A stretch of 64,000 nucleotides of DNA. Origin: Methanomicrobiaceae archaeon (GTDB lineage Archaea; Halobacteriota; Methanomicrobia; Methanomicrobiales; Methanomicrobiaceae). Positions 30,378-42,603 of this stretch are shown in pieces. The position numbers and the translations under genes were made by a program. The stretch spans positions 1-64,000 of the forward strand of contig JAFGNT010000018.1 of assembly GCA_016926855.1 (NCBI GenBank), written 5' to 3'. A model generated the notes under the pieces. It was not told where the DNA came from. It saw nothing but the letters and a program-made list of their open reading frames with translations, and made no database searches. The stretch's first letter is position 1; every line of letters starts with the position of its first letter.

Positions 30378-31514
30378 GTGACCGAAGGAGAATCTTCCGG
30401 GAAGATGCCTGCATTCCGGCTTTCCCTTGAGGAGGCTGCCGGCTCGATCGGCAATTTCGGAACGGTGCTTCCTATAGTGCTTGGCGTTGCGTTGGTTTCC
30501 GATGTGAATCTCGGCCAGATTCTCCTCTTCTTCGGCATCTGGTATATCCTGACCGGGGTGATTTACCAGATCCCGGTGCCGGTCGAGCCGATGAAAGCGA
30601 TGGGTGCCATTGTGATAGCCGAAGGGCTCCTTTATAATGAGATCGTGACCGCAGGAATGCTAATCGGTGTATTTACCCTCCTGATCGGAGTTTTCGGAGG
30701 GATGCGCTTCATGCGTGATCGTATTCCCGAATATGTGATCCGCGGCATTCAGCTGGGCCTTGCGCTCGTCCTTCTGAAGACTGCAACCCCCTTTATCCTC
30801 AAAGACCTGTTTTTTGCGTTTCTTGGGATTGGCATCATCGTCATTTTTCTCCTCGCCGGGACACGCAGGCAGATCCCCAACCTTTCCGCGTTGGTGGTCA
30901 TCCTGATCGGAATTGGCGCCGCCGTTACATCGACGGGCGTGCCGGAAGCGCATATGATCGAACCGCTTCGGCTGACGCTTCCATCGTTATCCACCGTTCC
31001 CGCAGCAACGTGGCAGCTGGTTATCCCGCAAATCCCCCTTGTTCTCACCAATGCAACACTAGCAACGGCGCTTCTCGCCCATGATCTCTACAAAAAGAAT
31101 ATCGAGCCTGACAGGCTCGCAATCACCATCGGGACGATGAATCTCATCTCCGTCCCATTAGGCGGATTTCCCATGTGCCACGGTGCGGGGGGCCTTGCCG
31201 CACACTACCGTTTCGGTGCACGTACAGGAATGGGGAACGTCATTGGCGGCATTATTCTCATCGGTGCAGCTCTCTTTTTTGCATCCCCGGCAGCAATCCA
31301 GAGTATTCCCCCGGGTGTATTCGCCGCCCTGCTGGTCTTCGTCGCCATCGAACTGGCGAAGAATGCCCTGAAAACCGACTCCATGGTGATCACCGCGATA
31401 ATGGGGGCCGTCGCCGTTCTTTCCTCGATGACAATCGCATTCCTTGCCGGGCTTGCCATGGCGTGGATTCTCCATATACGAACTTCGCGTTCGGGCAACA
31501 CGGGAAGTACATGA
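30378..31514 (+). CDS. MOT1-family sulfate/molybdate permease
   Basis: 378 aa, about 10 TM; 'LEEAAGSIGNFGTVLPIVLGVAL', 'PVPVEPMKAMGAIVIAEGL', 'GGFPMCHGAGGLAAHYRFGARTG'. Confidence 0.88.
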   Translation: MTEGESSGKMPAFRLSLEEAAGSIGNFGTVLPIVLGVALVSDVNLGQILLFFGIWYILTGVIYQIPVPVEPMKAMGAIVIAEGLLYNEIVTAGMLIGVFTLLIGVFGGMRFMRDRIPEYVIRGIQLGLALVLLKTATPFILKDLFFAFLGIGIIVIFLLAGTRRQIPNLSALVVILIGIGAAVTSTGVPEAHMIEPLRLTLPSLSTVPAATWQLVIPQIPLVLTNATLATALLAHDLYKKNIEPDRLAITIGTMNLISVPLGGFPMCHGAGGLAAHYRFGARTGMGNVIGGIILIGAALFFASPAAIQSIPPGVFAALLVFVAIELAKNALKTDSMVITAIMGAVAVLSSMTIAFLAGLAMAWILHIRTSRSGNTGST

Positions 31515-31610
31515 CCCGGAAACGGAACCTTATATCCTGTGAATATATAATGATGTAAAAAATATATAGGAGATATATCAATTGGTATCAAACCTGCGAG
31601 GTGAACAGAC

Positions 31611-31835
31611 ATGGCAATTAAAATCTATGTCCGCGAACGGCAAAAAGTCGGAAGCGGAGTTAAACAGCCGAAATACCGCGTTGTTGCGGTAACGGGCGGT
31701 CAGGGTGCGCACTTCAAGATCGAGGCGACCCACTTCAGAAAAAACGAGATCGAACTGATTGCGAAAGATATCGGCGCCGAACTGGTGTACCTCGAACAAA
31801 TGCCCGAGGAAAAACACGGTTCGATGAAGGATTAA
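31611..31835 (+). CDS. Small conserved-looking hypothetical protein
   Basis: 74-aa basic ORF preceded by a GAGGTGA Shine-Dalgarno. Confidence 0.7.
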   Translation: MAIKIYVRERQKVGSGVKQPKYRVVAVTGGQGAHFKIEATHFRKNEIELIAKDIGAELVYLEQMPEEKHGSMKD

Positions 31836-31863
31836 ACACACAAACCATTCCATTTTTTCGTAA

Positions 31864-32229
31864 ATGCTCTCCGAAAGCATTCTTCTCACAGCAGCGATCG
31901 AGATCATGCTCCGTCTGGATTATCATGTGGCGATACAGGCAGGTCCGGACGGCATTGCCATCCGCCTTCCCACGACCCGTCGGCTGGCAGAGTATCTCGG
32001 TGTGCCCCACTACTATGTACTGCCCCATTTTGCGGAGATGGAGAAAAACAATCTAATACAGCGAAAAGAGCGTGTCGGCATCTCAACGACACCCCGCGGC
32101 ACACGGATGCTTCTTTCGCAGATGGGAGACGAGTATGCCGAAGAAACGAACGCCGTGCTCGGTGATGACCTGTTTGCGCTCCTGCAGAAGCGCGCACTCC
32201 TCATCTCACCGGATGACCAGGTATCATAA
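31864..32229 (+). CDS. Winged-helix-like small protein
   Basis: 121 aa; 'TTRRLAEYLGVPHYYVLPHFAEMEKNNLIQRKERVGISTTPRGTRML' resembles wHTH. Confidence 0.65.
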   Translation: MLSESILLTAAIEIMLRLDYHVAIQAGPDGIAIRLPTTRRLAEYLGVPHYYVLPHFAEMEKNNLIQRKERVGISTTPRGTRMLLSQMGDEYAEETNAVLGDDLFALLQKRALLISPDDQVS

Positions 32230-32291
32230 AGGCCACTCCCGGATCACGAAGACCATTATCCTGTCACCGGCAGAAAATAGGGTCGTCCTTT

Positions 32292-33338
32292 TCAGAAAAC
32301 GTGGACAGAGCATGCCTTGAAGGTCAGGTAAACGGAGTCCCCCTCTGAAAGGTTCATGGCTTCATAACCCTGGCGGGTCAGGACGACCACGAAGGGAATC
32401 CCCGCATCGACAGAGAGGCGTACAAACATACCATTGTCAACAATTTCGGCAATCATCCCCTGAAAAGAGTTGCGCGCGCTTGCATCGAGGGGTTCTCTAG
32501 ATATAAGAATATCCTCCGGCCGGACACTCGCATAAACACTCTCCCCGGAAACACAGGTTGATGACACGATGTGCAAACCTTTTACATCGATATATGACCC
32601 ATCACCCTGTTTCCTGCACGCACCCCTGAAGAGGTTTTCAACGCCCACAAACTGTGCGATGAATTCTGATTCGGGCCTCCTGAAAATATCATCAGGTTCT
32701 CCGATCTGTACAATTTCCCCTTTGTTCATGACGGCAACACGATCGGCAAGTGAAAACACTTCCTCGAAATTGTGCGTGATGTGGATGATCGTGGTCCCGA
32801 AAATGGTGTGCAGGCGTTTTAATTCCTTTCTCAGTTTCTCGCGTGTCTGACCGTCCAGAGCACTCAGAGGTTCATCGAGAAGCAGGACTGTCGGGTTGAG
32901 GATAATAGCACGCGATATCGCCGCCCTCTGCTGTTCCCCTCCGCTTAATGTGTCCGGGTACCGGTGGAGAAGGTGATCGATCCCGAAAAGTTCCGCAACC
33001 TCGTGCACTTTCGTTTCTTTCTCATCTTTGGGTACTTTGCGGTTTTTCAGGCCAAATGCGATGTTTTCCCCGACGGTCAGGTGGGGAAAGAGCATATAAT
33101 CCTGGTACACCATGGTGATGTTCCGGTCTTTCGGAGGCTTATGGGTGATATCATTCCCCAGAAGAAGCACTTTCCCGCTGTCGGGAGGGTAGACGCCCGC
33201 GACAGTCTCCAGAAGAATTGTCTTCCCCGCCCCCGTCGGGCCGATGATAACCATGTATTCGCCATCTTTCACATCAAGGGAGACATTCTTCAACGTAAAC
33301 TCACCAAGATCTTTGGAGACGTTTTCAATCCGGAGCAT
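32292..33338 (-). CDS. Molybdate/tungstate ABC transporter ATP-binding protein, system 1
   Basis: Walker A 'GPTGAGKT', 'LSGGEQQRAAISRAI', 'LLLDEPLSALD', C-terminal TOBE-like domain. Confidence 0.93.
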   Translation of the reverse strand: MLRIENVSKDLGEFTLKNVSLDVKDGEYMVIIGPTGAGKTILLETVAGVYPPDSGKVLLLGNDITHKPPKDRNITMVYQDYMLFPHLTVGENIAFGLKNRKVPKDEKETKVHEVAELFGIDHLLHRYPDTLSGGEQQRAAISRAIILNPTVLLLDEPLSALDGQTREKLRKELKRLHTIFGTTIIHITHNFEEVFSLADRVAVMNKGEIVQIGEPDDIFRRPESEFIAQFVGVENLFRGACRKQGDGSYIDVKGLHIVSSTCVSGESVYASVRPEDILISREPLDASARNSFQGMIAEIVDNGMFVRLSVDAGIPFVVVLTRQGYEAMNLSEGDSVYLTFKACSVHVF

Positions 33339-33349
33339 GTAAAAACCTC

Positions 33350-34192
33350 CTAAAAGCGGGCAGCACCACCATACCGCTCAAAAATATAGAGTGAAACAAC
33401 GGAAATCACGATAAGTATCGTTGCCGCAGATATCGCCAGTTCAAGTTTTCCGCAGGACATGTTCAGGAACAGTGAAATCGGTAGTGTTTCTGTCTGCATA
33501 CGTGTCGCACCGGCAACGAGCAGTGCCGCTCCGAATTCGCCGATACCCTTTGACCACGTAATAACAGATCCGGCAAGCAGACCGTTTGCGGCCATCGGAA
33601 GCGTAACCCGCCATATAGCCTGAAAATCACTGCACCCGAGCGTTTTTGCCACATATTCATACCGCGGGCTGATGCTTTCAAATGTGGATCGCATGATGCG
33701 GAGCATGAACGGGAGATTGACAAAGAACTGTGCGGCGATAATCCCAAGTGGCGTGAACACAAAGACAAGCCCGATGTCTGCCAGCGCCTGACCGAACGGC
33801 GTCGTGCCGAAGAGGAGGAGGAGACCCACACCTGCAACCAGCGGGGGGAGGGCGAGGGGCATATCAAGTACCATGTTCACAACATTTTTTCCGAAAAACC
33901 GGTACCTGGCAAGGGCATATGCGGCTGGTACGGCAACAAGGATACAGAGCAGTGTTGAAACAATCGAGGTGATAAGGCTCAGTGTGATGGCGAACTGTAT
34001 CTCTTCGCTCATGAGAGAGGCGAGTACGGCTTCGGGAGCGGGGTGGCTTACTACCAGCAGGAGAAGTGCGACAATGAATCCCGTCAGGACCAGACTTGCG
34101 GCAATTGTGATGATTTTCAGCCAGTCAGGCCTGATTTCCGTCAAATGGTAGTCCTCCCCCTCTCCCGCAGCTTTTTGGGTGTCGCGTTCCAC
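33350..34192 (-). CDS. Molybdate/tungstate ABC transporter permease, system 1
   Basis: Six-TM permease; 'PLALPPLVAGVGLLLLFG', 'EFGAALLVAGATRMQTETLPISLFLNMS'; a TTG start at 34144 overlapping the upstream stop is an alternative. Confidence 0.92.
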   Translation of the reverse strand: MERDTQKAAGEGEDYHLTEIRPDWLKIITIAASLVLTGFIVALLLLVVSHPAPEAVLASLMSEEIQFAITLSLITSIVSTLLCILVAVPAAYALARYRFFGKNVVNMVLDMPLALPPLVAGVGLLLLFGTTPFGQALADIGLVFVFTPLGIIAAQFFVNLPFMLRIMRSTFESISPRYEYVAKTLGCSDFQAIWRVTLPMAANGLLAGSVITWSKGIGEFGAALLVAGATRMQTETLPISLFLNMSCGKLELAISAATILIVISVVSLYIFERYGGAARF

Positions 34193-34695
34193 TGAGCGAT
34201 GTCATCCATATGCTGGTCATCGACCCATCCGCTTTTCACGTCCCCCCTGTGGTCGAACTGGCGGACATAGGGTTTGATATCCAAGAGGGGCGTGCCGTCC
34301 AGAATATCGACCGCTCCTATCCTCAGAATGTTGCGATCGACGCCGAGCAGGTCCACGATGGAAAGGCCGATCGGGTTCGGGCGGTTGAAATGCCGGATGG
34401 CAAAGATCCCCCGCTCCTTCTCCCCGTCAAGAAACGGCTTCTGCGTCAGATTTTTCCCGGTAGCCCGGTCAAAATGGTACAGCAGGATAAGATGTGAGAA
34501 CCGTTCGATATCCAGAAGCCCGTGTTCGTACTCAGGAAACAACTCGACTGTCCCGACCGAAGGATTGAATATACCCTGTATGGGCGTATTTTCATGTTCA
34601 GTATGTTCTGAATGGATTACTCCGATAGGCGTATAGACAAATTCCATCCGTTTTACTTTTTCACTTATTTCTTTCGAATCCACCTGTATCATCAC
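34141..34695 (-). CDS. TrmO/TsaA-family SAM-dependent methyltransferase
   Basis: 'YTPIGVIHSEHTEHENTPIQG', 'IFAIRHFNRPNPIGLSIVDLLGV', 'LLDIKPYVRQFD'; start could be Met at 34647. Confidence 0.9.
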   Translation of the reverse strand: MMIQVDSKEISEKVKRMEFVYTPIGVIHSEHTEHENTPIQGIFNPSVGTVELFPEYEHGLLDIERFSHLILLYHFDRATGKNLTQKPFLDGEKERGIFAIRHFNRPNPIGLSIVDLLGVDRNILRIGAVDILDGTPLLDIKPYVRQFDHRGDVKSGWVDDQHMDDIAQWNATPKKLRERGRTTI

Positions 34696-34830
34696 CTGAA
34701 AGAGAGATTTGCCATCAGAATTGGCAGATTATATACCATTGAGACAACCGTTCCTGTACATGTCCTATTTCCCACCTGATATAATACATAACGAAAAAGG
34801 AGTGGCGGTACGATAATGCCACCGGTCACT

Positions 34831-35649
34831 CTACATGCTTTCGTACTTTTCGGACGGGTATGTTTCAAATCCATGCTTTTCAAAGATTGCCTTGCCCTCA
34901 TCGGACGATACGAAATTCATGAACTTCTCCGCATTCCCGGGATTTTCAGAGAATGAGAGTGTTCCGATGGGGATTACCTTAATAAATCCTTTGTCAATCG
35001 GAATATCCACTTTCTCCATCGTCTCGGGGTTGAACAGGTCTTCCCAGATGATCGCCGCATCCGCCTGGTCCATCGAGATATAGACAAGGAGTTCGTTCAC
35101 GGTTCCGGATTTCACCACGCAATTCTTCTCCACGTCTTCCCACAGGCCGTCTTTCTCCAGCATGGATTTCGCTGCTGTACCGACAGCGGGGCCGGTTGGT
35201 TCGCCTATCGCCACGCGGATACCCTCTCGTGTCAGATCCTCAAGAGTCTGAATATTTTTCGGGTTGCCTTTCCCGGTGACGATCGCCAGTACATGATACA
35301 CCGTCGGTGCGCTCTGGTCGATGAAACCCTTTTTAGCAGCCGAATCTATATAGGACTTCGCCCCCGGCATGTAGGCGTCACCCTTCTGAACCAGTTCAAT
35401 CTGCGACAGGAGCTGAGCGGAACCGCCGTACGTGTAATCAATGGAAATACCTTCCTTTTCCGAAAACACTTCAGCTATTTCATCCATCGGTTCACGAAGG
35501 CCCGCGCCGCAATAGACGAGCAGGGACCCGCCGGCCTCGTCCCCGGTGAGGGGAGGATTGACATTCGAGCCCGCATTCGTGCATCCTGAAACAAGGAGCG
35601 CCATCAGCAGCACAACGACGGCACCAACGAGAAGATTGTGTTTCTTCAT
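34831..35649 (-). CDS. Molybdate-type ABC substrate-binding lipoprotein (ModA-like), system 1
   Basis: Lipobox 'LLVSGCTN'; 'LLVYCGAGLREPMDEIAEVFSEKEGISIDYTYGGSAQLLSQIE'. Confidence 0.92.
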   Translation of the reverse strand: MKKHNLLVGAVVVLLMALLVSGCTNAGSNVNPPLTGDEAGGSLLVYCGAGLREPMDEIAEVFSEKEGISIDYTYGGSAQLLSQIELVQKGDAYMPGAKSYIDSAAKKGFIDQSAPTVYHVLAIVTGKGNPKNIQTLEDLTREGIRVAIGEPTGPAVGTAAKSMLEKDGLWEDVEKNCVVKSGTVNELLVYISMDQADAAIIWEDLFNPETMEKVDIPIDKGFIKVIPIGTLSFSENPGNAEKFMNFVSSDEGKAIFEKHGFETYPSEKYESM

Positions 35650-35727
35650 ACTATGACATTATGAGTGAAATTATTAAAAGAGTTAGTTTCTTTACATCAT
35701 AGTTAGATTTTTATTAAATATTTTTGA

Positions 35728-36798
35728 TTAACAAACCCCTTCCGGTTCCGCAAGGTGCACTGTCCAGGCATCGAATATTGCAAAAACGGTATCCCCCACG
35801 CAGAGTTTCAACTCATCAATGGTTTTTTGAAAGACCATTGCCGCAAGCGGAAAACCGCAATCGAGGCCGACACGAACCACCGGGCCTTTCGGGTTAAGAT
35901 CCGTCACCACCCCTTTCAGGACATTTTTCATCTCACCGCCTGTATCGGCCCGGGAGAGTCCTACATTCTCCGCACGCAGGCATACCGTGACGCTATCACC
36001 GGGGTCATGATCAGATTGAGCCTTTATCTCCTCTCCATTTACGTCAATATCCGCGATGCCGTCATGGTTGCGGACGACCACGCCGTCAAGGATATTGTCG
36101 ACACCGACAAACTGCGCCACCTGCTTGGTCACGGGACGGGCAAAGACTGTTGCCGTTTCTCCTTCAGCCACGAGTGATCCCTCGATGATGACGCCGACGC
36201 GGGTGGCGAGCTGCAACGCTTCTCCCCGGGAGTGGGTTACCTGGACGATTGTCAGTCCGTGTTTGCGGTGAAGATCGCGGAGTTCGCCGATGAACGTCTC
36301 CTTCGTGATAGGATCCAGCGCTGCGAGAGGTTCATCAAGGAGCAGGATATCGGGTTCGACTGCCAGTGCGCGGGCAATGGCTACCCGCTGCTGCTCCCCG
36401 CCGCTCATCGTCAGGGGGTGGCGGTCCTTCAGCCCCTCGATTCCGAAGGACGCCAGCAGCTCATGTACCCGGCGTGCGATCTCTCCGGGCGGAAGTTTTT
36501 TCATGCGGAGGCCGAATGCGATGTTATCGTACACAGTCATATGAGGAAAAAGCGAGTAGTCCTGGTAAACAAGCGCAACGTTTCTTTTTTCCGGGGACAT
36601 CGCTCCGGCATCTTTCCCCCGGATACGCACCGTTCCGGAATCGGATGCATGCAGGCCTGCAATAGCCTCGAGGATGACCGTTTTCCCGGCACCCGACGGC
36701 CCGAGGATGAAATAGTATTCCCCTTTCCCGACCTTCAGGCATACATCATGAAGGTGAAAATCACCGAGCTGAAGGCAGACGTTGTTAAACTCGATCAT
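35728..36798 (-). CDS. Tungstate/molybdate ABC transporter ATP-binding protein, system 2 (WtpC-like)
   Basis: 'MIEFNNVCLQLGDFHLHDV', 'GPSGAGKTVILEAIAG', 'MSGGEQQRVAIARAL', 'LLLDEPLAALD'; internal Met start. Confidence 0.93.
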   Translation of the reverse strand: MIEFNNVCLQLGDFHLHDVCLKVGKGEYYFILGPSGAGKTVILEAIAGLHASDSGTVRIRGKDAGAMSPEKRNVALVYQDYSLFPHMTVYDNIAFGLRMKKLPPGEIARRVHELLASFGIEGLKDRHPLTMSGGEQQRVAIARALAVEPDILLLDEPLAALDPITKETFIGELRDLHRKHGLTIVQVTHSRGEALQLATRVGVIIEGSLVAEGETATVFARPVTKQVAQFVGVDNILDGVVVRNHDGIADIDVNGEEIKAQSDHDPGDSVTVCLRAENVGLSRADTGGEMKNVLKGVVTDLNPKGPVVRVGLDCGFPLAAMVFQKTIDELKLCVGDTVFAIFDAWTVHLAEPEGVC

Positions 36799-37597
36799 CA
36801 TATCTCCCCAGCGCCCGTGAAATAAGTCTGAGCATGATAAATGCAACAAAGCAGGCAAGAATCATCACGAATGCCACCGTACTGCTTTCTTTTAAACCCC
36901 CGGTCGTGAAACGGTAATAGATGAGGGTCGAAATGACCATCGGGTAGTAGGCAATCATGATGATTGCAGCGAATTCACCGATTGCACGCCCCCATGCCAG
37001 AATCGATCCGTTCATGATATGCCGTGAGCTCAGGGGCAGGACGATGCGAAGAACCGCGTGAAAACGGGATGCTCCGAGTGTCCTGGCGACGTTTTCGAGG
37101 TGAATCGGCACTTTTTCAATGCCTTCACGCACCGAATTGATGTAATAGGGGGACGAGACAAACAGCATTGCAATGACAATTCCCGGAAAAGCATCCTCGA
37201 AAATAAAACCAACCGCATCAAGCGGTGCGCCGATCAATCCGCGCTGCATAAACAGGATATAGACAAGAATCCCTGCGACCGTATGCGGCAGCATGACAGG
37301 AAGATCCACGAGACTTTCGACAACTCCCTTGCCGGCGAAGTTGGTTCGCGCGAGAATGTAGGCAAGTGGCGTCCCTATAAATATCAGAATGACAACGGCA
37401 AGCGCTCCGGCTCCCATCGTCGTGACGATGGAATCAATCACCCGGGTCTCGGTTGCAACACGGATAACATGGGGGATGTCGGCAAGTTCCCGCACCGTCA
37501 TATTCAGCAGGGCAAGGACGGTCAGCCCGACAATGAGGCTTCCGATGAGTGCAAACGATATCAGACACCGATCGGGAAGAGGACGTGTTCTGCGCAT
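36785..37597 (-). CDS. Tungstate/molybdate ABC transporter permease, system 2 (WtpB-like)
   Basis: Six-TM; 'DLPVMLPHTVAGILVYILF', 'WGRAIGEFAAIIMIAYYPMVISTLIYYRF'. Confidence 0.93.
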   Translation of the reverse strand: MRRTRPLPDRCLISFALIGSLIVGLTVLALLNMTVRELADIPHVIRVATETRVIDSIVTTMGAGALAVVILIFIGTPLAYILARTNFAGKGVVESLVDLPVMLPHTVAGILVYILFMQRGLIGAPLDAVGFIFEDAFPGIVIAMLFVSSPYYINSVREGIEKVPIHLENVARTLGASRFHAVLRIVLPLSSRHIMNGSILAWGRAIGEFAAIIMIAYYPMVISTLIYYRFTTGGLKESSTVAFVMILACFVAFIMLRLISRALGRYDDRV

Positions 37598-37656
37598 AGG
37601 TGTGATATCCCGGACTATCCGTAGGTGACGGCAACGTATGAAGCTCTCGGAAAAAA

Positions 37657-38730
37657 TCAGGAGTGGAGGGTGACCAGTGAGGTCAGCATCGAAGGAACAC
37701 TGCCGTAGCCACCGGCAGGCACGATCGGTGGTTGTCCCTGCCCATTCATTATCTCCTGTCCGGGAGCCTCAATCAGCATTTTCACAAATGCAAGTCCGGC
37801 TTCGGGATGGTCGGCGTTTTTCGGGACGGTCACGCCATAGACAATCGGACTGCCCTTGTTCATGATAGTTGATCCCGCTTCACTTCCGACGCACTCAATC
37901 TGCACCAGGGCATAGGTCGATTCGTAGTCGACCGAGGAGAGATCGATTGCTTCGGGGAGTTCGATGAATTTCAGGTTGTTCTGGACCGCAACACTGCGAT
38001 ACTCCCATGCATAGTCCAGACCCCCGGACTCCACCATCTGCACGAGTTCAACACTCTTGGGCCTGATGGAGAGGGAACCGCTGGGTTCGGGTTCGGTCGC
38101 GTGGATGGTGTAGATACCGTCCGCTTCGGTTACGGTCAGGGCACTGTTCGCTCCGACGGTACGGTCGAATATCTGGTCGTCACCATAATGGAGTTCGGCA
38201 AGCTGTATCACCATTGGTGTCCGGTACCCGCAGGGATCAAGATTCGGGTCGGAAAACGCCCATTTGACATCCTCACGTGCCAAGATGTCATACCAGTTAT
38301 CGGCGGTGATCTCATCGGCATAGTTGCTCGCGTCCGTATACGTAAGAACCATCTGGTTCTTGGCAAACGTGACGTACCAGTCGGCATCATCCGGCACCAT
38401 CAGGTTTGGGATGAGCGAATAATCCGCAGAGGCGAGAACATCAGCGGATTTATCCAGTTCGGTGATATCCTTCACCACTTTCGTGCTGCCACCGGGAACG
38501 AGCTGAACCTCGACATTCGGATATTCTGCCTCAAATGCCGCCTTCATCTCTTCAAACGGGGCGGTGAGGCTCCCTGCGTGAAAGACGGTGAGTGCGAACT
38601 CTTCGGGAGCGGCAGTCGGTACGGGTGTTTCAGTGCCGCTCTGCGCGGGCTCGGTTGTTGTACACCCGCAGACGAAAAACACGGCACACACCATCATAAT
38701 AACTATTGTAAGCTGTATTGAGCTTCTCAT
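37657..38730 (-). CDS. wtpA: Tungstate/molybdate-binding lipoprotein (WtpA-like), system 2
   Basis: Lipobox 'FFVCGCTT'; 'LTVFHAGSLTAPFEEMKAAFEAEYPNVEVQ', 'ADVLASADYSLIPNLM'. Confidence 0.93.
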   Translation of the reverse strand: MRSSIQLTIVIMMVCAVFFVCGCTTTEPAQSGTETPVPTAAPEEFALTVFHAGSLTAPFEEMKAAFEAEYPNVEVQLVPGGSTKVVKDITELDKSADVLASADYSLIPNLMVPDDADWYVTFAKNQMVLTYTDASNYADEITADNWYDILAREDVKWAFSDPNLDPCGYRTPMVIQLAELHYGDDQIFDRTVGANSALTVTEADGIYTIHATEPEPSGSLSIRPKSVELVQMVESGGLDYAWEYRSVAVQNNLKFIELPEAIDLSSVDYESTYALVQIECVGSEAGSTIMNKGSPIVYGVTVPKNADHPEAGLAFVKMLIEAPGQEIMNGQGQPPIVPAGGYGSVPSMLTSLVTLHS

Positions 38731-38811
38731 GCACAGAATTAACAGGCTGAAACAATATAAGATTTTGTTTTCAGAGCTGAGTTAAGCAGGTTTAGTATAC
38801 TTTATTATCAT

Positions 38812-39961
38812 TCATCCCGTGTCCTCCATGACATGCACCGCGCTTGCCTTAAAAGAAATCCTGACTACATCACCTTCGTGAAGATCAAGATCCTCGACGG
38901 ACTTCCAGGTCAGCGTCACCATCAGGGTGATCCCGGCATCGACCATGATCTCATTGACGGGTCCGGCCGCGATGATTTTACTGATGGTGCCCTCAAGCAC
39001 ATTCAGCGCACTTATCCGTTTCGCATGCGACAGGTGAAGGGTGATATCCTCGGGCCGGATACATCCGCAGGCACGGACACCCGCAGGAAGATCCGTGACG
39101 GCGTGAATGACGGTTTTCCCAACAGTGATCGTTGCGATCCCCTTTTCCGTAGCACTGATGAATCCTTCCAAAACATTGCCTATGCCGATGAAACGGGCAA
39201 CTTCCTTGTTTTTCGGTGTGGAAAAGACATCGCGGGGAGTTCCCGTCTGGGAAAACGTACCGTGCATCATGACCCCGATCCGATTTGCAAGTCGTTGTCC
39301 CTGAAGCATATCATGGGTGGACATGATCACCGTAATTCCCGATTCACGGTTGTACCGCAGGATCAGTTCTTCAATCGCCTCTGTTGCGACCGGATCAAGA
39401 TTTGCCGTCGGTTCGTCGAGCAGCAGAATCGCAGGTTCGGTTACCATCGCACGCGCGAGGGCGACCCATCTTCAATTAATATATATGACGAATAACCTCC
39501 GTTACCATCGCACGCGCGAGGGCGACCCGCTGCATCTCTCCGCCGGACAAGGTACGTGCCTTCCGGTTCCCGAATCCCTCCATGCCGATGACGTCAAGTG
39601 CGTTATCAATCTGTTCACGGATAATCCGGCGATCGAATCCGCGATATCGCAATCCGGTCGCGATGTTGTCGCTCACGCTTGAATTAAAGACCACGGGTTT
39701 CTGAAAAACCATCGCCATCATCCGCTGTAATTCCATCCTCCGGTTTTTTTCCCGGTGGATATCCATGCCGTCGAAGAGGATCTGTCCTGCCGTCGGTTCG
39801 TCAAGAAGGTTGATCAGGCGGAGCAGAGTCGACTTGCCCTGCCCCGAAGGCCCGATAATAGTGAAGATCTCCCCGTCATTGATGGTGGCATTCACATCCC
39901 TGAGTACCTCTTTTCTCCCAAAACTCTTGCAAATTCCACGAATTTCAATCATCATCCTCAC
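38812..39961 (-). pseudogene. Tungstate-type ABC transporter ATP-binding protein (TupC-like), split by a 61-bp direct-repeat insertion
   Basis: N-part 39476-39961 with Walker A 'GPSGQGKSTLLRLIN' and signature '[18 protein letters not shown]' then stop; C-part 38812-39447 begins '[19 protein letters not shown]'. Confidence 0.9.
39440..39528. repeat. 28-bp exact direct repeat (39440-39467 and 39501-39528) separated by 33 bp
   Basis: Both copies read gttaccatcgcacgcgcgagggcgaccc; period 61 bp; inside the TupC-like gene. Confidence 0.97.
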
Positions 39962-40680
39962 CGCTGCTGCACCTGCGTCATCAGGGTATTGATCACCAGT
40001 GCGATGAGCAGCAGGATCAGCCCGAGAGCAATGGACAATCCGATATTCCCCTTGCCGGTCTCCAGTGTAATCGCCGTCGTCAGCGTCCGTGTCGATCCCC
40101 AGAACGAGGTCGCGTCAATGTTGCCGCCGATGATGATGGCGGCCCCGACCTCCGAGATGGCCCGTCCGAACGCCATCGCTATGGCGGCAAATATTGCAAA
40201 GCGTGCTTCTTTTATTACCGAGAGAAGAAACTGCAGGCGGTTTGCACCGAGTGAAATTACGGTATCGGTAATTGTCCGGTCAATACCCGAAAGGGCCGAG
40301 ATTGTCAGCCCGGTGATGATGGGAAGCACCAGAATCGTCTGACCGATGATCATCCCCCAGGGGGAGAAGAGAAAACCGAGAAATCCGAACGGTCCTATGC
40401 GCCTGATAAAAAGAAACACGAGCAGGCCTATCACAACGGTCGGAAAAGCATAGAGCGTCTGAATCAGATTAATAAAGAGTTTTTTCCCCGGAAATTCCCG
40501 GAACGTTATGAACGAGCCGACGGGAAGAGCTATCACCGTACCGAGGATTGTCGCGCTGAAGGTAATGACAAGGCTGAGTCCCGTGATTTTCAGCACTTCG
40601 GGATCCAGGGTTATCATCAGATGAAGCGCCTGCATTATGCCGTCTGCAATCGGATACAGCCCTTCAAGAATCCCCGTCAT
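39958..40680 (-). CDS. tupB: Tungstate-type ABC transporter permease, system 3 (TupB-like)
   Basis: 'VITFSATILGTVIALPVGSFI', 'TLYAFPTVVIGLLVFLFI', 'GRAISEVGAAIIIGGNIDATSFWGSTRTLTTAITLETGKGN'. Confidence 0.94.
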   Translation of the reverse strand: MTGILEGLYPIADGIMQALHLMITLDPEVLKITGLSLVITFSATILGTVIALPVGSFITFREFPGKKLFINLIQTLYAFPTVVIGLLVFLFIRRIGPFGFLGFLFSPWGMIIGQTILVLPIITGLTISALSGIDRTITDTVISLGANRLQFLLSVIKEARFAIFAAIAMAFGRAISEVGAAIIIGGNIDATSFWGSTRTLTTAITLETGKGNIGLSIALGLILLLIALVINTLMTQVQQR

Positions 40681-40754
40681 GGTTACACATCATAGCTTTT
40701 ACCGGTCATTCATATATAAAAAGAGGCGGACGTGGGGGATCAGTCCATCACTGA

Positions 40755-41711
40755 TCAGGAGATGGGTGTTTCGCATTCTTCCTGCGTCACACCGATCTTT
40801 TCCCATGCACCGAGTGACGGGAAGAAGAGCGGCCTCCCGAATTCCGCGACGCGGAAGGTGCCGATCTTATCCTGCGTCTCTTCCGCAATAAGATAGTTGA
40901 TCCATTCCTTGGCAAGCGTACTGTTCACTTCCGGATACGTTGCCGGGTTGATCTGCATTGCGCTGTAGATGTTCAGCAGGATATCTCCCTCCTCGACGAC
41001 GATCACCAGACTGATGTCCCCCTGATACGCAAGGAACGTCCCGATGTCGCTGAGAGTATATGCCTCTTTTTCGTTTGCAAGTGTCAGCGTGGCGCCCATA
41101 CCGCTGCCTGCCTCGATGTACCAGTCGCCTGACGCTTTTACCTCGTCATAGGTATACCCTGCACTTGTCCAGATGGCCTTCTCTTTAGCATGGGTACCTG
41201 ATTCATCGCCGCGGGAGACGAACTTCACCGCGGGATCGGTCTGCCCTCTCTCCATGATCGTCGTAAAGGCATCCTCCGGGCTCAGGCCGGAGATGGCGGC
41301 AGGATCGGATTCAGGACCGACAATGACAAAGTAATTGTACGCAATGACCCGGCGGTTAACACCGAAGCCGTTTTCGATGAAGAGATCTTCGCGAACGCGG
41401 TCGTGCACCATCATGACGTCCACGTCGCCCGCTTCGCCGTATTCAAGCGCTTTGCCGGTTCCTGCAGAGATAATTTTTACTTCTGCATTATACTGGCCCT
41501 CAAAATCTGTCTTGAGGTAATCCAGAAGCCCCGTATCATACAGGCTCGTTGTCGTCGCAATATGCAGTTCCTGTTTGGGGCCGGGCGCTGCGGTTGGTGC
41601 GGGCGTCGGCGTTGCCGCCGGTGCCTGGTCGGTACATCCGGTCATGAATACTGCGCCGATGAGCAGCAGCATGATAAACGAAAAAAGAATCAAACGTAAT
41701 TTCCTGTTCAT
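40755..41711 (-). CDS. tupA: Tungstate-type substrate-binding lipoprotein, system 3 (TupA-like)
   Basis: 'AVFMTGCTDQ' lipobox; 'LHIATTTSLYDTGLLDYLKTDFEGQYNAEVKIISAGTGKALEYGEAGDVDVMMVHDR', 'FVSRGDESGTHAKE'. Confidence 0.95.
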   Translation of the reverse strand: MNRKLRLILFSFIMLLLIGAVFMTGCTDQAPAATPTPAPTAAPGPKQELHIATTTSLYDTGLLDYLKTDFEGQYNAEVKIISAGTGKALEYGEAGDVDVMMVHDRVREDLFIENGFGVNRRVIAYNYFVIVGPESDPAAISGLSPEDAFTTIMERGQTDPAVKFVSRGDESGTHAKEKAIWTSAGYTYDEVKASGDWYIEAGSGMGATLTLANEKEAYTLSDIGTFLAYQGDISLVIVVEEGDILLNIYSAMQINPATYPEVNSTLAKEWINYLIAEETQDKIGTFRVAEFGRPLFFPSLGAWEKIGVTQEECETPIS

Positions 41712-41764
41712 GAAAATTGTTGAAGTTGTGATGATATGTATAATGTTTTGTTTTGTGACAATGT

Positions 41765-41780
41765 TAAACCAATTGGTTTA
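41765..41780. promoter_or_regulatory. 16-bp perfect palindrome TAAACCAATTGGTTTA, candidate operator upstream of tupA
   Basis: Lies in the 85-bp gap between the MoSto-like gene and tupA, about 54 bp upstream of the tupA start. Confidence 0.5.
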
Positions 41781-41796
41781 CCTTTGCACCGCCATA

Positions 41797-42603
41797 TCAG
41801 GCACGAATCACGGTACCGACCTTCTCTCCCGCAAGCGCCCGGGAGAGAGTCCCGGGGACATGGCCGTTGATGATGTGCACCTCGTGAACACTCCGGGCGT
41901 GCAGAAGGAGTTCAACCACCTTATTCTCAAGCACCATGTCCTCCATGTCCATCGCGAGCAGCTCTCCGGCGGTAATTTCGGGTATCAATTCCGCACCGGG
42001 ATTCTCGAATGGGTTTTCGGTAAAGAGGCCGTCGACGTTTTTAAGGAGGAAACAGTTCTTTGCTCCGAGCACTTCGGCGGCAAGAAATGCACCCGTATCG
42101 GTACGATGCGGCGGAATCATCCCGACTTCTGGGGGGTACTCGTACAGGCCGTACGGTGGCGTGCCGTGTGTGACCGGCAGGAGCCCCATCTTCAGAAGAT
42201 ACGGCACTTCAAGCAGATCCGCCGTATGAATCCGCATGCCGTTGTACTGAGAGAGCAGAACTGCCATCATGATCGCGTTCTGTTCGCTGATTTTCCCCGC
42301 AAGTTCGGCGAGAACCCCCGTCGGCATATCAAGATCGAGACCGATATCAAGAATGTGCCGAACCCGGACCCCACCCCCGGTAATGACCAGCATCTGGTTG
42401 GTCGCCGAGAGCCTCCCGATCTCTTCGGACAGCGGTTTGACAACCGGTGCACCGTAGTCGATGATCCCGTGCCCGCCAATCTTTACAATATTGAGCTCCG
42501 GTGCGATCCGGAGCGGATGTCGTCCCTCGTACCTCGCGAGCAGGCCTTTCCGGACCAGGGATTCCCCTTTGAGTTTCGATTCCATGTCATGCCGGTGAAC
42601 CAT
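41797..42603 (-). CDS. Molybdenum storage protein (MoSto) subunit homolog, amino-acid-kinase fold
   Basis: 'NIVKIGGHGIIDYGAPVVKPLSEEI', 'YPPEVGMIPPHRTDTGAFLAAEVLGAK', 'VHEVHIINGHVPGTLSRALAGEKVGTVI' match recalled MosA/MosB motifs. Confidence 0.82.
   Translation of the reverse strand: MVHRHDMESKLKGESLVRKGLLARYEGRHPLRIAPELNIVKIGGHGIIDYGAPVVKPLSEEIGRLSATNQMLVITGGGVRVRHILDIGLDLDMPTGVLAELAGKISEQNAIMMAVLLSQYNGMRIHTADLLEVPYLLKMGLLPVTHGTPPYGLYEYPPEVGMIPPHRTDTGAFLAAEVLGAKNCFLLKNVDGLFTENPFENPGAELIPEITAGELLAMDMEDMVLENKVVELLLHARSVHEVHIINGHVPGTLSRALAGEKVGTVIRA

Follow-up and report, generated by a model that had tools for sequence, protein, structure and literature searches.

A likely molybdate and tungstate acquisition and storage island of Methanomicrobiales, with a candidate regulator pair and an interrupted Tup-type importer

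We analysed a 64-kb stretch of DNA (the window) from contig JAFGNT010000018.1 of a Methanomicrobiaceae archaeon, focusing on a group of genes that runs from a MOT1-family permease to a homolog of the storage protein MoSto (mosB). We consider it likely that these genes form an island, conserved in Methanomicrobiales, that serves to acquire and store molybdate and tungstate and is equipped with a pair of regulatory genes and with a Tup-type importer that is probably inactive. The formylmethanofuran dehydrogenases of methanogens need molybdenum (Mo) or tungsten (W). In this archaeal order MoSto relatives prove to be common, and they are tied to importers of Mo/W as well as to a candidate regulator whose operator can be read, a combination that makes Mo/W control in Methanomicrobiales methanogens directly testable.

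In the model that we propose, MOT1 and two ATP-binding cassette (ABC) importer sets, of the Mod and Wtp types, would bring in molybdate and tungstate under other control, and the MoSto homolog would hold the imported oxyanions in an ATP-loaded cage. A winged-helix protein, perhaps with a small protein as its sensor or partner, would act through a palindromic operator. This pair would regulate its own genes as well as the tungstate-type tup operon; in relatives it would also regulate mosB.

The island is conserved across Methanomicrobiales

The island was re-read with open reading frame (ORF) calls, Pfam, NCBIfam, PDB sequence searches and motif analysis, and was compared with 60 genomes of the order Methanomicrobiales and 247 of the phylum; two structure predictions were also made. 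The genome under study is a metagenome-like assembly of 35 contigs that is 89% complete. A first-pass annotation of the window had listed a MOT1 permease, Mod-, Wtp- and Tup-type sets and a MoSto-type gene, all of which we find in place. It had passed over a TrmO/TsaA-type gene, a 74-amino-acid (aa) ORF, a winged-helix gene and palindromic operator-like sites. The MOT1-family permease, of molybdate/sulfate type (30378..31514, + strand; PF16983, 4.5e-49), recurs in the islands of relatives, and its MFS_MOT1 domain scores 165.9 against a Pfam gathering score of 30.

The island genes co-occur, in varied orders, in many Methanomicrobiales genomes. Because the same genes recur together so widely, their grouping is not due to chance. 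Binding-protein families were assigned with curated models and solved relatives. The three proteins fall in the ModA, WtpA and TupA families and not in phosphate or iron families; matches of ModA to the NCBIfam sulfate models are weak and far under cut-off.

The island had been proposed to be a specialized module for uptake, discrimination and storage. Uptake and storage are well supported by the ModA, WtpA and TupA family matches, by a genuine MoSto match and by conservation of the gene set across an archaeal order. Discrimination is not shown, because the ATPase paired with the ModA-type protein scores above the WtpC cut-off and the WtpA protein lacks the equivalent of one of the two carboxylates that bind tungsten. 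The presence of ModABC, WtpABC and TupABC in one organism has already been documented and is not new (PMC6147048). An Rfam scan of the window returned only a tRNA; none of the known riboswitches for the Mo/W cofactor reached the gathering threshold. In the limited library of open papers searched, there was no mention of MoSto relatives adjoining Mo/W importers in an archaeal order, nor of the regulatory pair and operator, the WtpA difference or the tupC footprint described below.

An operator-like palindrome is linked to a winged-helix gene

An operator matrix built from the winged-helix/mosB intergenic regions yields the palindrome TTATACCAATTGGTATAA. It identifies two sites in the window: ATATATCAATTGGTATCA before the small ORF (31573..31590, unstranded; score 20.4), which is part of the training set, and TTAAACCAATTGGTTTAC before tupA (41764..41781, unstranded; score 23.1), which is the best in the window and is not part of that set. 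The third-best score in the window is 12.3. When the whole genome was searched with the pattern, both island sites ranked in the top three, and the remaining matches were at the level of the control. A TATA scan of promoter geometry gave matches that are near-palindromic and hence ambiguous.

In relatives, the palindrome precedes mosB and some tup operons. Across 638 kb of island sequence we counted 36 sites scoring at least 15. Of these, 35 precede tup genes, mosB or the small ORF, and other sequence amounting to about 234 kb contained none. For genes outside the training set, a site precedes 10 of 41 first genes of tup operons and 2 of 197 other genes, one of these two sitting in a shared divergent promoter (Fisher test 4e-7, an optimistic value since related genomes are not independent).

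The candidate regulatory pair consists of the conserved 74-aa small ORF (31611..31835, + strand; 15 invariant columns in 15 sequences) and the 121-aa winged-helix protein, the candidate regulator itself (31864..32229, + strand; 22 invariant columns in 18 sequences). AlphaFold2 models the winged-helix protein with a predicted local distance difference test score of 92.7. It belongs to no Pfam or NCBIfam family and has no PDB sequence match under E 0.001; fold searches with the winged-helix and small proteins also returned nothing under this value, the small protein's model being of low confidence. The phylum search gave 30 winged-helix loci: 29 have the small ORF as a neighbour, 28 have mosB, and all 30 contain a site scoring at least 13. 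In the window, mosB lies about 10 kb from the winged-helix gene, within the same island.

The operator and the winged-helix gene are also linked in their absence. The operator is present in 37 of 40 loci with the gene, and it is absent in four genomes (G008, G019, G028 and G033) that keep the small ORF and in which the winged-helix gene was not found genome-wide; by our own arithmetic the chance of this absence is about 3e-4. Four short regulator-negative loci were set aside, as their gene may lie past the fetched end, which was seen for G039 and G044. In a same-genus genome (G001), the winged-helix gene was likewise not found and no operator precedes tupA. It is conceivable that another regulator binds the palindrome and that the winged-helix gene is linked to it by position only, as three loci with the gene lack a strong site. 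We think this unlikely, because the site is missing from the four genomes without the gene and from before G001 tupA, and because the sites before tup genes played no part in building the matrix. Thus, the island probably holds its own Mo/W regulator, as judged from sequence, and the operator together with the winged-helix candidate is what best supports control of tup, and of mosB in relatives, as a unit.

The transcription factors ModE and TaoR have a tie to Mo/W transport (PMC11980592). The winged-helix protein resembles them in being a candidate transcription factor with the same tie, but they carry TOBE or PBP-like ligand domains, for which it gives no Pfam or NCBIfam match.

Several points, in addition to the relatedness of the genomes compared, weigh against so integrated a view of the island. 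Neither the mod nor the wtp operon was found to be preceded by an operator site, and the island is therefore not shown to be one regulon. Placing an importer and a storage protein under a shared operator is also not what one would first expect of a repressor that simply responds to metal. The lesion in tupC is known from one metagenome-like assembly. Finally, whereas gene content, homology, conservation, the interruption as seen in the assembly and the operator pattern with its link to the winged-helix gene are shown directly, we infer from sequence the substrates, the storage activity, the binding of the operator, the signal and direction of regulation and the loss of Tup function.

The MoSto homolog is encoded by a single gene

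The storage protein homolog is of MosB type (41797..42603, - strand) and matches MosB at 3.5e-56 (2ogx_B) and MosA at 9e-47. A full-length MosB-type gene is present in 36 of the 60 genomes searched. MoSto was said in 2019 to have no known homologs (PMC6448029). The island protein is homologous over its full length to both MosA and MosB of Azotobacter vinelandii MoSto, while being closer to MosB, and has the amino acid kinase fold (PF00696); it differs from the Azotobacter system in being archaeal, encoded by a single gene and adjoined by Mo/W importers. MoSto has two subunits, alpha and beta, whereas the present genome, at 89% completeness, has one MoSto match. Because there is only one subunit gene, we file its product as a homolog and not as MoSto proper.

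The fold and the single subunit gene could also mean that the protein is one of the kinases in the amino acid kinase family and has no storage role. The NCBIfam matches, although weak, are to UMP kinase only (56.6 bits against a cut-off of 158). However, the best match to any other amino acid kinase in the PDB sequence search is 1.6e-7, compared with 3.5e-56 over the full length for the MoSto subunits, and mosB adjoins Mo/W importers across the order, which makes a kinase very improbable. The MoSto homology is genuine on sequence comparison, and the single-gene homolog probably stores oxyanions in an ATP-loaded cage.

One related genus has two adjacent mosB-like genes (L058:9600-11563; genomes G034, G039, G044, G049, G054 and G059). 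Their products are 63-68% identical to the window protein and possibly form an alpha/beta-like pair. In another family member, the MosB-type gene (G027:C1:201673-202484) matches in two pieces, possibly through a frameshift.

The Tup importer is interrupted

The Tup-type set comprises a TupA-type binding protein (40755..41711, - strand; matching tungstate-binding proteins, 3lr1 at 3.2e-58; NF041772 193.8, under the cut-off of 400), a TupB-type permease (39958..40680, - strand; NF038017 229 against 100; NF041773 162.5, under the cut-off of 320) and a tupC ATPase gene that is in two pieces. The 5' piece (39476..39961, - strand) carries the Walker A and signature part and the 3' piece (38812..39447, - strand) the Walker B and TOBE part. 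A 61-bp insertion, made up of a 28-bp target duplication around a 33-bp insert, divides the gene (38812-39961). The first copy of the direct repeat, GGGTCGCCCTCGCGCGTGCGATGGTAAC, lies at 39501..39528 (- strand) and the second, also GGGTCGCCCTCGCGCGTGCGATGGTAAC, at 39440..39467 (- strand). Between them, the unique AT-rich insert GGAGGTTATTCGTCATATATATTAATTGAAGAT (39468..39500, - strand) occurs in a single copy in the genome.

Removing the 61 bp restores a 362-aa TupC ATPase frame. In G001, which has the order hisD-tupA-tupB-tupC-MOT1, TupC is uninterrupted and the site is empty. The two tupC halves both stay open, and the ratios of non-synonymous to synonymous substitution rates (dN/dS) against G001 are 0.085 and 0.20, so the insertion looks recent. 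We ruled out a chance direct repeat, as the 28 bp are exact and the site is empty in G001. We also considered translational bypassing over the 61 bp, for which no supporting feature was seen.

Because its ATPase gene carries the insertion, the Tup importer is probably inactive in the present genome, unless the insertion is a product of assembly or a minority variant. The earlier description of three complete ABC importer sets is therefore no longer apt, tupC being in two pieces with a disrupted frame, and with this ATPase gene interrupted a count of four importers is too high for the present genome.

Binding residues have been reported for Desulfovibrio TupA (PMC5517513). The island TupA retains equivalents of the TTTS motif, His59, Arg118, Thr124 and Asp170, as in the TupABC tungstate importer. 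The set departs from that importer in that TupA and TupB fall under the equivalog cut-offs and tupC is interrupted.

The tup genes (38812-41711) are 43-56% identical to those at the same place in other family members (L033, L039 and L031), whereas mosB is 78-80% identical; with more distant genomes the tup genes reach 66-69%. The sequence identities suggest that the tup operon was replaced.

Origin of the tupC insertion

We considered two accounts of the lesion. In the first, which bears on its origin and not on the function of the island, the insertion may be an off-target spacer of a type I-E clustered regularly interspaced short palindromic repeats (CRISPR) system: Cas1-Cas2 would have inserted a prespacer of 33 bp at a 28-bp site resembling a repeat, duplicating the site in the process. 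Together, 28 and 33 bp add up to 61 bp, which is also the period of relatives' type I-E arrays, and type I-E Cas1 occurs in 10 of the 60 genomes, six of them in the same family. Arrays beside type I-E Cas1 in relatives have repeats such as GAGTTCCCCACACGCGTGGGGATGAACC, and the tupC target is identical to such repeats at up to 17 of 28 positions. As good a match is found at 0.13% of window positions, or 0.05% by mean identity, although this resemblance was looked at after the geometry had been noticed and the comparison was with relatives' repeats only. The target starts with G on both strands and so has G at both integration borders. Cas1 favours G at integration borders, according to work on off-target sites of a type II-A system (PMC6895254). 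The AT-rich insert also looks foreign to the genome. Against a spacer origin, the present 89%-complete genome yielded no type I-E Cas1 over cut-off and no Cas2 match; its only Cas1 is a solo copy with no array found nearby. A source for the 33-mer was found neither in the genome itself nor among IMG/VR viruses, and phages and plasmids gave chance-level matches only. We regard a spacer origin as possible but on balance doubtful.

A stronger contender, although one that we would still not call probable, is that the insertion is an artefact of assembly, belongs to a minority variant or arose through a replication error that used filler DNA. The assembly consists of 35 contigs and is 89% complete, the lesion is seen in the assembly alone and both tupC halves look conserved (dN/dS 0.085 and 0.20). 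These explanations have to accommodate an exact 28-bp duplication and a 33-bp insert without a second copy in the genome, and a filler event would need a chance match to the type I-E geometry.

Off-target ('non-canonical') CRISPR spacer integration was reportedly described by Nivala et al. in 2018. The tupC lesion resembles it in its 28-bp duplicated target, 33-bp insert and 61-bp unit, and differs in that the genome has no detected type I-E cas genes and that our searches found no source of the 33-mer. Were the lesion indeed a misplaced spacer, CRISPR adaptation would here have mutated the host that carries it, and the case would be a natural example of this. The fuller proposal, that a natural off-target type I-E spacer knocked out a tungstate-type importer within an island run by a previously undescribed small-protein/winged-helix Mo/W regulator, is a tentative one that we rate as rather less likely to be true than false.

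The solo Cas1 gene (G000:C1:21678-22688, equivalent to L044:1678-2688) encodes 336 aa and adjoins arginine deiminase-like and carbamate kinase-like genes. No Cas2, array or other cas gene was recognized near it.

The Wtp-type and Mod-type sets

The Wtp-type set (set 2) contains a WtpC-like ATPase (35728..36858, - strand; NF040840 374 against a cut-off of 440), whose match starts at residue 21 and whose true start is probably near 36801. Its WtpB-like permease (36785..37597, - strand) scores 253 with NF040839, against a cut-off of 340. The WtpA-type binding protein (37657..38730, - strand) exceeds its curated cut-offs (NF003196 424.7 against 355; TIGR03730 384.7 against 242.75), and its best solved relative in the PDB sequence search is Methanosarcina MA_0280 (1.2e-96). 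In characterized WtpA, an Asp and the Glu218 carboxylate coordinate tungsten (PMC10221389). The key Asp is kept here, but the Glu218 equivalent, placed through an alignment with AF_0094 and a numbering offset that we reconstructed, is Ser, and is Ser or Gly in 15 relatives. Thus, the set resembles WtpABC of Pyrococcus, Archaeoglobus and Methanosarcina in its WtpA scores and retained Asp, and differs from it in the Ser residue and in having WtpB and WtpC under their equivalog cut-offs.

In the Mod-type set (set 1), the ModA-type binding protein (34831..35649, - strand) is over its family cut-off (TIGR01256, 97.5 bits against 62.5), as expected of a ModABC molybdate importer, and matches ModA structures to 1.9e-17. 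The rest of the set is unlike ModABC. The ModB-like permease (33350..34192, - strand; TIGR01581 244.6 against 210.3) falls under the NCBIfam ModB cut-off (170 against 182.6), and the ATPase (32292..33338, - strand) passes the WtpC model (NF040840, 481.9 bits against a cut-off of 440) and not that for ModC (214.8 against 285.05). The operon also includes a TrmO/TsaA-family gene (34141..34695, - strand; TIGR00104 134.1 against 93.25). This homolog of a tRNA methyltransferase lies between modA and modB, and it has the same position wherever relatives have retained the operon.

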